A DNA stretch of 64,000 bases from Chryseobacterium sp. 36-9 (lineage in GTDB: Bacteria > Bacteroidota > Bacteroidia > Flavobacteriales > Weeksellaceae): the NCBI GenBank assembly GCA_001898785.1, contig MKVE01000019.1, positions 1 to 64,000 of the forward strand, given 5' to 3'. Below are positions 62,655 to 64,000 of the stretch, one piece after another; within the stretch, counting starts at the first letter, position 1, and every line of letters begins with the position of its first letter. The notes under the pieces were generated by a model, which was given only the letters and a program-made list of their open reading frames with translations, had not been told where the DNA came from and searched no databases. Made by a program: the position numbers and the translations under genes.

Positions 62655-62876
62655 CTTGTTTCAAATCAACGGAGCCTTCCGGAAGTCAAAAACACTATTG
62701 TTTTAAATCAAAAAAGTCCTCCGGAGGTTTCCCGCAACTTGCAGGAGACTTCCGGAGGACTACGGAAGTTACAAATAGGATTGTTTTAAATCAACGGAGG
62801 TATTGGGAGATTTCCCGCAACTTTTGGGAGATTTCCGTAGGACTACGGAAGGAATAAACATAATTGTTTTAAAACA
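62655..62876. repeat. 83-bp tandem repeats upstream of DUF6261 gene
   Basis: ATTGTTTTAAATCA recurs at 62697, 62780 and (slightly changed) 62863; the two full units are 83 bases each. A short first unit of about 42 bases begins at 62655. Each full unit holds a TTTCCCGCAACTT core and a hairpin near TTCCGtAGgaCTACGGAA. In the first full unit, AGTCCTCCGGA (62715-62725) pairs perfectly with 62751-62761. It is not a CRISPR: the units abut with no unique spacers. The gap 62590-63181 contains only repeats. Confidence 0.7.
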
Positions 62877-62888
62877 AATAAGAGCTTT

Positions 62889-62956
62889 CGGTGGCGCGAG
62901 CTTCTAGCTCGTGTATTTATTTATTTTTGGGTACGAGCAAGATGCTCGCACTAGCG
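62889..62956. repeat. REPIN-like pair of palindromes
   Basis: CGAGCT-TCT-AGCTCG (62897-62911) and CGAGCA-AGA-TGCTCG (62934-62948) are two hairpins whose flanks (GCGCGAG, CTCGTG and GTACGAG, CTCGCAC) match in inverted order. Two REP-type palindromes facing each other form a REPIN. Confidence 0.55.
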
Positions 62957-62980: not shown

Positions 62981-63010
62981 GATTGCTTCGTCGTTCCTCC
63001 TCGCAATGAC
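62981..63010. repeat. Interspersed palindromic repeat (GATTGC...GCAATGAC)
   Basis: GATTGCTTCGTCGTTCCTCC followed by TCGCAATGAC. The ends ATTGC and GCAAT pair, with a partly paired interior. This motif is a recurrent genomic palindrome in several bacterial groups. Confidence 0.5.
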
Positions 63011-63025
63011 GTCTCAAACAAACGC

Positions 63026-63061
63026 TCATCCACAAAATTTTGCAGCGTCACTTTTCAAATT
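63026..63061 (-). pseudogene. Displaced fragment of the hutU 3' end
   Basis: This segment matches 63716-63750, the last codons of hutU, at about 27 of the first 30 bases. It reads KVTLQNFVDERL against KVTLPNFVDESL in the intact gene. The two copies lie 690 bases apart in the same orientation and enclose the DUF559 element. Confidence 0.65.
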
Positions 63062-63075
63062 ATACCACGGCTGGG

Positions 63076-63147
63076 AATTCCCCTCCTTTGGAGGGGTGGC
63101 AGAAATTCAGAGAATTTCTGACGGGGTGGTTCTCAATTTCTCCACCT
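63076..63147 (+). repeat. Left terminal inverted repeat, three hairpins
   Basis: Hairpins are CCCCTCC-TTT-GGAGGGG, AGAAATTC-AGA-GAATTTCT and GGTGG...CCACC. The first 56 bases match the inverted right end except in the second hairpin and one base of the first loop. Confidence 0.7.
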
Positions 63148-63181
63148 GAAAGAAAAAACTTAAATTCATAAAAAAATACAA

Positions 63182-63601
63182 ATGTCAGGAAAAGAAATGC
63201 TAACCCAAATTGAGGGTATTATCATCTACCGCAATTTTGTGGAAAACCTACCTTACAATCCGCTCCTGAAAGCTTTGACCAAAGAAAAAAGAAAATTGAG
63301 AATTCTGTCTGAAGTCTTATTCTGGAAACAGGTTCGAAACAGAACATTCCACAACATTGATTTTGACAGACAAAGGATTATTGGCAACTATATTGTCGAT
63401 TTTTATGTAAAAACGTTGGGACTTGTGATTGAGATTGATGGGTTCAGTCACGACCTTAAACAAGAATATGACCTGGAAAGGACAAAGTTTCTGGAAAGTC
63501 TGGGTCTGAAAGTTTTTAGAATTACGGACTGGGATGTGAAGCACAATCTTTCTGTGGTGATGAAGGAATTGGAAGATTTTATTATTGAAAATTATAGTTG
63601 A
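63182..63601 (+). CDS. DUF559 domain endonuclease-like protein
   Basis: A 139-residue protein of the DUF559 family, related to the Vsr-type PD-(D/E)XK nuclease fold. The start LPYNPLLKALTKEKRKLRILSEVLFWKQVRN leads into FDRQRIIGNYIVDFYVKTLGLVIEIDGFSHD (about 57-87), which supplies the Asp and the Glu-x-Asp of the metal site. The tail RTKFLESLGLKVFRITDWDV is also typical. Family members are thought to cut or process DNA, but activity is unproved. The gene is bracketed by inverted repeats, which argues for mobility. Confidence 0.85.
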   Translation: MSGKEMLTQIEGIIIYRNFVENLPYNPLLKALTKEKRKLRILSEVLFWKQVRNRTFHNIDFDRQRIIGNYIVDFYVKTLGLVIEIDGFSHDLKQEYDLERTKFLESLGLKVFRITDWDVKHNLSVVMKELEDFIIENYS

Positions 63602-63619
63602 AATTTCTCTGAGCTAATA

Positions 63620-63698
63620 GGGTGGTTGGATTCATTCACGATAACCACCCCGTCAATTCGCCTTTGGCGAATCGCCACCCCTCCAGAGGAGGGGAATT
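63620..63698 (-). repeat. Right terminal inverted repeat, three hairpins
   Basis: Inverse of the left end. GGGTGGTT (63620-63627) pairs with AACCACCC (63643-63650), AATTCGCC-TTT-GGCGAATC is the variable hairpin, and CCCCTCC-AGA-GGAGGGG is the outer one. The last bases adjoin the hutU stop codon at 63700. Confidence 0.7.
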
Positions 63699-63699
63699 T

Positions 63700-64000
63700 T
63701 CAGCTTAATAGACTTTCATCCACAAAATTCGGCAACGTCACTTTTAGATTCGGTTCTGCTTCCATGGCTCTTTTGATAGCGAAAACAGCACCTTCATTTC
63801 TTGCCCAGCTTCGTCTTGAAATTCCGTTATTTACATCCCAGAAAAGCATTGATTTTAACCTTCTGTCAGCATCATCGCTTCCATCCAATAACATTCCGAA
63901 ACCACCATTAATGACTTCTCCCCAGCCAACACCGCCGCCGTTGTGAATGGAAACCCACGTCGCACCACGGAAACTGTCACCAATGACATTATGAATTGCC
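63700..64000 (-). CDS. hutU: Urocanate hydratase, C-terminal part (cut by window edge)
   Basis: Only the last 100 codons are in the window. The enzyme adds water to urocanate in histidine breakdown, using a bound NAD. The visible part holds GATWVSIHNGGGVGWGEVINGGFGM and LLDGSDDADRRLKSMLFWDVNNGISRRSWARNEGA, the conserved C-terminal motifs of HutU. It ends KVTLPNFVDESLLS. The stop codon TGA lies two bases beyond the end of the DUF559 element, so insertion may have fixed the last codons. Its upstream part lies beyond 64000. Confidence 0.93.
   Translation of the reverse strand, partial: AIHNVIGDSFRGATWVSIHNGGGVGWGEVINGGFGMLLDGSDDADRRLKSMLFWDVNNGISRRSWARNEGAVFAIKRAMEAEPNLKVTLPNFVDESLLS

Follow-up and report, generated by a model that had tools for sequence, protein, structure and literature searches.

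REP/RAYT systems pair GTAG-tagged REP sequences with a Y1 HUH transposase. Another group of palindromes, the CGTC-tagged REPs, occurs in Bacteroidetes and other phyla and is described, in the part of the source available to us, as lacking a dedicated transposase; its members have a CGTC tag, a stem of 8–9 bp, a loop of 4–5 nt and a CCA tail (Di Nocera et al. 2013, PMC3733652). A further group, the TM_ECO repeats, folds into an intrastrand triplex in vitro, and 3610 copies were counted in 262 proteobacterial genomes (Holder et al. 2015, PMC4666352). DMS footprinting gave no stable triplex in vivo, instability was found at the repeat loci, and the accessible text of that paper names no partner, origin or function for the triplex repeats (PMC4666352). 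Here, we describe a DUF559 gene that lies between two repeats of triplex layout in Chryseobacterium sp. 36-9, and a survey of similar genes that makes DUF559 a possible partner for this widespread repeat family of unexplained origin and function. The literature, covered largely at the level of titles and the beginnings of abstracts, yielded no link of DUF559, COG2852 or ycjD to triplex repeats.

The DNA analysed, hereafter the window, is a stretch of 64,000 nt of contig MKVE01000019.1. The unit and its immediate surroundings have the following features:

63017–63055, minus strand: degenerate repeat of the hutU 3′ end, across the unit from hutU itself, a candidate long target duplication
63076–63131, plus strand: left end, 56 nt (direct reading and repeat search)
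63080–63086: left-end pyrimidine arm, CCCCTCC
63090–63096: left-end purine arm, GGAGGGG
63100–63120: left-end hairpin in the second loop, 9 bp with a 3-nt loop
63123–63129: left-end third strand, GGGGTGG
63182–63601, plus strand: DUF559 gene, 139 aa, between both ends (Pfam profile match)
63643–63698, minus strand: right end, inverted, 56 nt (direct reading and repeat search)
63645–63651: right-end third strand
63654–63674: right-end hairpin in the second loop
63678–63684: right-end purine arm
63688–63694: right-end pyrimidine arm
63707–63745, minus strand: hutU 3′ end, the matching copy beside the right end

An earlier note on this DNA had described 56-base inverted ends around a single DUF559 gene, and these were confirmed at 63076–63131 and 63643–63698; the local alignment of left and right end scores 54, with a maximum of 25 in 20 shuffles. 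The inner hairpin has, at both ends, the three-base loop and the differing sequences that had been noted before, but nine pairs instead of eight. Each end alone folds into two hairpins, with predicted single-stranded DNA folding energies of −15.0 (left) and −15.3 kcal/mol (right) and z values of −5.0 and −4.2, and none of 200 shuffles was as stable. The unit's gene is the sole PF04480 match of the genome at E ≤ 0.001, and the strict end pattern is found once per strand, only within the unit; two more hits came from a relaxed 23-nt search, a degenerate end with 1 mismatch on contig C27 and a weak match with 3 mismatches. Rfam gave no match to the ends and two weak sub-threshold matches elsewhere.

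Other repeats are found next to the unit. Three adjacent 83-nt repeats, 60–73% alike, with TCCGGAGG-type palindromes lie at 62670–62918, and an inverted GCGAGCTTCTAGCTCGTG / ACGAGCAAGATGCTCGC repeat lies at 62886–62955, with a similar repeat near hutU at locus L132. At 62982–63017, on the minus strand, the repeat CGTCATTGCGAGGAGGAACGACGAAGCAATCTG is found, which begins with CGTC, is possibly a CGTC REP and recurs next to the hutU copies of G101 and G008.

The earlier note missed that the ends are, by their layout, triplex motifs and not hairpins only. They read CCCCTCC-nnn-GGAGGGG-(variable hairpin)-GGGGTGG, and the G-rich strand mirrors the purine arm, with T opposite A, as expected for a purine-motif intrastrand triplex; judged by sequence, arm, complementary arm and mirror third strand are all present, with G opposite G-C and A or T opposite A-T. 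The third strand was taken as the first GGGG past the duplex whether or not it fitted, and 99 of 114 ends could be scored in this way. The third-strand base matches the duplex pair in 98 of the 99 scored ends of the host family. At position 7, C-G is found with G in 75 ends, T-A with T in 23 and C-G with C in one, and neither C-G with T nor T-A with G occurs at all; the 75/23 split tracks groups of related genomes, so that the independent events are fewer than 98. The inner loop occurs in 75 distinct sequences with a mean longest helix of 7.2 bp, compared to 4.3 bp after shuffling (maximum mean of 200 shuffles, 4.7 bp), and a helix of at least 5 bp is present in 73% of them. Third-strand covariation and inner-loop helices together point to a triplex as the selected structure, in most cases with its second loop folded into a hairpin, and support the previous claim that the fold is kept while the sequence changes. 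Plain hairpins were ruled out as a description of the ends, the GGGG block beside the inner hairpin being in mirror order and covarying with the arms. We regard the triplex covariation as a solid computational result; inside the cell, the ends would presumably fold in the same way.

The window protein matches the Pfam family DUF559 (PF04480) with an E value of 2.5e-25 and 88.9 bits (cut-off 20.6). Its family, YcjD/DUF559 (COG2852), had been predicted to be a PD-(D/E)XK nuclease (PMC1189080, available in part), and the structure model (pLDDT 87.9) predicts such a nuclease with the Vsr/I-Bth0305I fold. The top Foldseek matches are 3HRL and 3R3P, the latter being the catalytic domain of the homing endonuclease I-Bth0305I, which is also matched by profile (E 1.3e-4); 1VSR is a weaker Foldseek match, with a probability of 0.98 but an E value of 0.06. 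These matches agree with the Vsr-like nuclease proposed before. In an alignment of 51 rows D73, G87, H90 and D97 are invariant and E84 and D86 nearly so, and these residues are compatible with a nuclease site. Compared with the gene of G111, dN is 0.053 and dS 0.549 (dN/dS about 0.1); the gene is under purifying selection. PADLOC found no convincing anti-phage system; its matches were weak, the best of the window protein having an E value of 3e-4.

A search of 197 genomes of the host family with PF04480 gave matches in 102, and 82 loci with scores of about 43–108 bits were examined. The gene type was defined by a relaxed IDFDRQRIIGNYIVDF motif, which is present at 72 of the 82 loci and, together with the window, gives 73 genes; ten loci without the motif were dropped. 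Under a strict rule (ends within 400 nt) ends are found on both sides of 57 of the 73 genes, on one side of 9 and on neither side of 7. Six of the latter seven were read, and five (L091, L101, L103, L104 and L110) have both ends, with C or A in place of T after the hairpin and, at one of the five, a mismatch in each hairpin. Altogether, 62 of the 73 genes of this type are flanked by both ends (57 by the strict rule, 5 by eye), in support of the earlier note, which had asked whether such ends flank most flavobacterial DUF559 genes, and several of the loci without both ends sit at contig ends. The 73 genes are distributed over 67 genomes and are therefore mostly single-copy.

No full end is found anywhere at the higher-scoring DUF559 loci L006–L033 of the family (both ends at 0 of 28), a set that is defined by score and does not imply one clade, with many proteins of more than 1000 aa and three that are truncated. 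Among its 25 full-length loci, 7 have a triplex motif with at most one mismatch within 350 nt. No such hairpin or triplex was present at any of 30 Y1_Tnp loci, and a RAYT/Y1 transposase as local partner of the ends was ruled out on this count. One convergent pair of ends without a DUF559 match (L274) has no open frame of more than 84 codons between the ends.

The strict end pattern is present in 84 of the 197 family genomes, and a reversed control pattern gave zero in every row. Gene and ends are found together in 60 genomes, the gene only in 7, ends only in 24 and neither in 106. Since the units supply ends of their own, two ends were subtracted per unit, which is a crude step; extra ends then remain in 42 of the 67 genomes with the gene versus 24 of the 130 without (odds ratio 7.4, kinship of the genomes uncorrected). 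Ends in these 24 genomes that lack the gene are one half of what had been named beforehand as speaking against a mobile DUF559 unit, and this half was found. Eight loci with listed ends were read; one end is present at six of them and two ends at the other two, and these dispersed ends lie between longer open frames. Eight ends of the same orientation lie within 4.4 kb in a genome without a DUF559 match (G098, locus L276), and BIME-like local arrays of ends with a regular spacing of about 108–112 nt were seen at L062, L075 and L105.

The pairing of DUF559 genes with repeats, as judged by computation, extends beyond flavobacteria, which had also been missed before. In a plasmid collection, 5 of 10 DUF559 loci have clear inverted ends of the same kind (Sphingomonas twice, Sphingobium, Novosphingobium and Qipengyuania), two are borderline (Neisseria and Synechocystis), and those of Methylobacterium, Azospirillum and Photobacterium have no flanking inverted repeats above shuffles. 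At least 579 relatives were found in a protein-based scan of named genomes, and the analysis was continued with the best 80. Flanking inverted repeats that exceed shuffles are present at 44 of 76 of these loci, compared to 0 of 57 far controls and 19 of 76 cross-locus controls, the latter number arising because ends of different loci resemble each other. Pyrimidine/purine hairpins number 138 in 59,022 bases near the genes versus 16 in the 95,672 bases of the far windows. The mirror third strand is complete after 71 of the 138 near hairpins and 7 of the 16 far ones; shuffled tails gave a mean of 1.5 and a maximum of 5 in 200 shuffles. For asymmetric arms the mirror order beats the direct order by 57 to 14, with 47 ties, in a comparison that lets the offset of the third strand vary; with the third strand fixed at a poor offset only 17 of 66 were perfect, and mirror stood at 22 versus direct at 19. 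A first end detector (n = 78; left-inward 51, right-inward 31, left-outward 31, right-outward 31) was superseded by explicit triplex scoring.

A perfect triplex motif lies within 350 nt of 59 of 77 DUF559 loci that were picked by protein alone, and in 0 of 54 far windows of 370 nt and 8 of 54 of 700 nt. With one mismatch allowed, the numbers are 63 of 77 loci versus 2 of 54 far windows (370 nt). A general excess of the motif in these genomes was judged unlikely, with 0 or 8 of 54 far windows compared to 59 of 77 loci. Sorted by record titles, loci with a perfect motif belong to ten phylum-level groups: Cyanobacteria (8 of 8 loci), Proteobacteria (18 of 20), delta/Desulfo groups (6 of 6), Planctomycetota (5 of 5), Chloroflexi (7 of 10), Bacteroidota (7 of 16, among the weaker groups), Patescibacteria (2 of 2), Nitrospirae (1 of 2), Methylomirabilota (1 of 2) and Latescibacterota (1 of 1); three of three unassigned loci have it as well, and Binataceae and Zipacnadia gave 0 of 1 each. 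The orientation of the motif is inconsistent in this wide sample, with an inward pair at 16 and an outward pair at 13 of the 77 loci, and the second loop measures 1–6 nt in 98 of 135 motifs and more than 15 nt in 29. The association of gene and repeat is, like the covariation, a solid computational result.

Escherichia coli K-12 holds both a DUF559 gene, ycjD (1351407–1351760), and 23 mapped repeats. One of these published repeats, TM_ECO no. 9, is located at 1351204–1351239 (PMC4666352, available in part), and its distance to ycjD is 168 bp. By reading, an inward triplex-like motif directly follows ycjD in E. coli KE47, with a second one further on; in K-12 the first motif appears to be degenerate, and the final codons of ycjD lie within it. 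The upstream side of ycjD has no triplex. The downstream repeats carry a non-pyrimidine base and are therefore rejected by the detector, which demands a pure pyrimidine arm, so that the link between ycjD and the repeats rests on reading and on the published table. ycjD is present in 3365 of 5426 E. coli genomes, and within phylogroups D and E its presence varies. Repeat places were counted in 60 E. coli rows drawn at even steps from a ranking: with ycjD, genomes have 12–27 matching places (median 19, n = 37) and without it 1–18 (median 4, n = 23), three ycjD-positive rows (H159–H161, with 12, 14 and 13) not being above several ycjD-negative ones (11–13, one 18). Since the repeat number in E. 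coli follows the phylogroup, according to the accessible part of PMC12817139, the link to ycjD is suggestive only. Five strains without ycjD have a TetR regulator and efflux genes beside fabI. These are the eef operon (PMC12817139, as far as its accessible part goes), and the ycjD-less strains therefore offer no simple empty site.

In the window, the right end of the unit abuts the last codons of hutU, and the direct repeat of 39 nt at 63017–63055 and 63707–63745 is 82% identical. In the genus of the window, all 13 such genes are found no more than 2.4 kb from hutU. Among the 70 listed gene pairs of highest similarity, both flanks are shared by 52 and one flank or more by 69, and the lone pair without a shared flank is cut by a contig end. 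Apparently, the units are mostly inherited vertically at fixed sites. The claim of the earlier note that the protein moves the unit was not borne out, the genes being mostly single-copy and their flanks mostly common to the nearest relatives. Its proposed search for empty sites gave one reasonable comparison of an occupied with an unoccupied site, at hutU, and no clean empty site elsewhere: in G101, the hutU 3′ copy directly joins a sequence that in the window and in G008 lies past the unit; in these two the unit intervenes at this junction, with about 50 nt of hutU duplicated. For L049, a unit with perfect 46-nt repeats abutting both ends, a search of 36 genomes of its genus with the flank gave only partial matches outside its own genome. 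Significant flank repeats were found in 14 of 57 units, some of low complexity or holding other ends. This pattern fits rare insertion with long duplications, or local amplification of repeats. The region downstream of hutU is variable in the window's genus (window 63017–63745; L149, L133); in G101 and G111 other genes and then hutU 3′ fragments follow hutU, and three of these fragments start close to one and the same GACGAAGC site, some 125 nt ahead of the stop.

The best explanation, towards which we lean rather than away from it, is a nuclease-repeat system of the REP/RAYT kind with an unrelated enzyme of the Vsr/I-Bth0305I fold and another DNA fold. The ends would be intrastrand triplex repeats of the purine motif, most of them with an additional hairpin in loop 2, that fold when a strand is exposed, for example at the replication fork. 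The DUF559 protein would recognise the folded repeat and nick it at its foot, and in the repair of the nick a copy of the repeat, with or without the gene, would occasionally end up elsewhere; this would give rise to dispersed single repeats, local arrays and the long direct duplications seen next to some units. Reading and cutting of the fold by the enzyme would best explain the data, and movement of the repeats by it is a likely inference. Against active mobility stand the mostly single copies, the fixed sites and the ends without a gene. The inconsistent orientation in the wide sample and the DMS footprint without a stable triplex in vivo (PMC4666352) also count against this explanation. 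In untreated wild-type DNA, a band was seen just before the repeat and was lacking with a mutated repeat, which the authors read as a polymerase stop (PMC4666352, available in part); it could possibly be a nick instead. It is tempting to speculate that DUF559 nucleases are the dedicated enzymes of bacterial intrastrand-triplex repeats and thus a second, independent class of repeat nucleases beside RAYT, present in a large part of the bacteria; a Vsr-like enzyme would here read three-stranded DNA, spread the repeats and cause the instability nearby. This wider proposal is tentative, and we doubt it somewhat more than we believe it.

The instability at repeat loci reported by Holder et al. (PMC4666352, in its accessible part) and a gene that is mostly single-copy, vertically inherited and selected would also suit a caretaker, a nuclease that opens or trims folded repeats and so limits instability without spreading them, the ends being autoregulatory or docking sites. 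Extra ends are commoner, not rarer, in genomes with the gene, however, and long direct duplications lie beside some units, which makes this unlikely. We give rather less credit to homing, in which the nuclease would cut gene-less pairs of repeats and repair would copy the gene in, as with I-Bth0305I, its closest solved mobile relative. Units would then be bordered by direct R-X-F copies, and in a relaxed search 6 of 57 units had R-type ends beyond their left end together with F-type ends beyond their right end; at L049, perfect 46-nt repeats (X) abut both ends. These units are a minority, and the opposite orientation is nearly as frequent (left, R 10 and F 9; right, F 9 and R 7). The X segments of L070 are local to the neighbourhood and not dispersed in three of five genomes searched. 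Vsr is among the fold matches, and the protein might be a mismatch nickase of the Vsr type, as proposed for Caulobacter VsrA, with the nearby repeats serving another purpose; this is improbable, as it leaves the repeats beside the gene at 59 of 77 loci unexplained. Slightly less can be said for a gene that has no functional link to the ends, being cargo of a repeat moved otherwise or lying between its own RNA or terminator elements. The gene is small and ends do occur alone, but Y1_Tnp genes with such ends number 0 of 30, the end pair without DUF559 encloses no open frame of more than 84 codons and the ends have no Rfam match; this reading we consider the least probable. If the fold is indeed read by the enzyme, as favoured here, this would be a triplex-specific nuclease of natural origin, and the problem solved by RAYTs would have been solved a second time. 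With a nuclease gene beside triplex repeats in several phyla the question becomes testable, also in E. coli K-12.

In comparison with the TM/TM_ECO repeats, as far as the accessible text of Holder et al. (PMC4666352) describes them, the ends share the pyrimidine arm, the purine arm and the mirror third strand, and both are dispersed, intergenic and conserved, with copy numbers that vary greatly from strain to strain. They differ in the second loop, which here is an insert of 8–32 nt, usually a hairpin, whereas it is 3 nt in TM_ECO and was limited to 1–6 nt in the published search (PMC4666352). With stems of 7 nt and a loop of 26 nt, the window's ends are thus not TM_ECO in the sense of Holder et al., which has 9-nt stems and a 3-nt loop, and they have a partner gene, whereas the accessible text reports no mobility functions near the motifs (PMC4666352). 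As in the CGTC REPs of Di Nocera et al. (2013; PMC3733652, available in part), a hairpin follows CGTC here too, namely the loop-2 hairpin on the other strand; the resemblance is by reading only, and the CGTC letters are partly those of the third strand. The DUF559 protein belongs to the YcjD family and is related in fold and sequence to the Vsr and I-Bth0305I endonucleases, but its gene, unlike that of I-Bth0305I, is not intron-borne. From REP/RAYT, the unit differs in an unrelated PD-(D/E)XK enzyme that matches DUF559 and not Y1_Tnp, and in ends of triplex layout in which no GTAG tag was noticed. The host genome itself has only the two full ends of the unit and one degenerate end, and the inverted repeats with dispersed copies that are typical of REP/RAYT are found in genomes of the family. 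The resemblance noted at the outset therefore holds in the layout: a mostly single-copy nuclease gene, inverted structured repeats around it and further copies of these repeats in many genomes.
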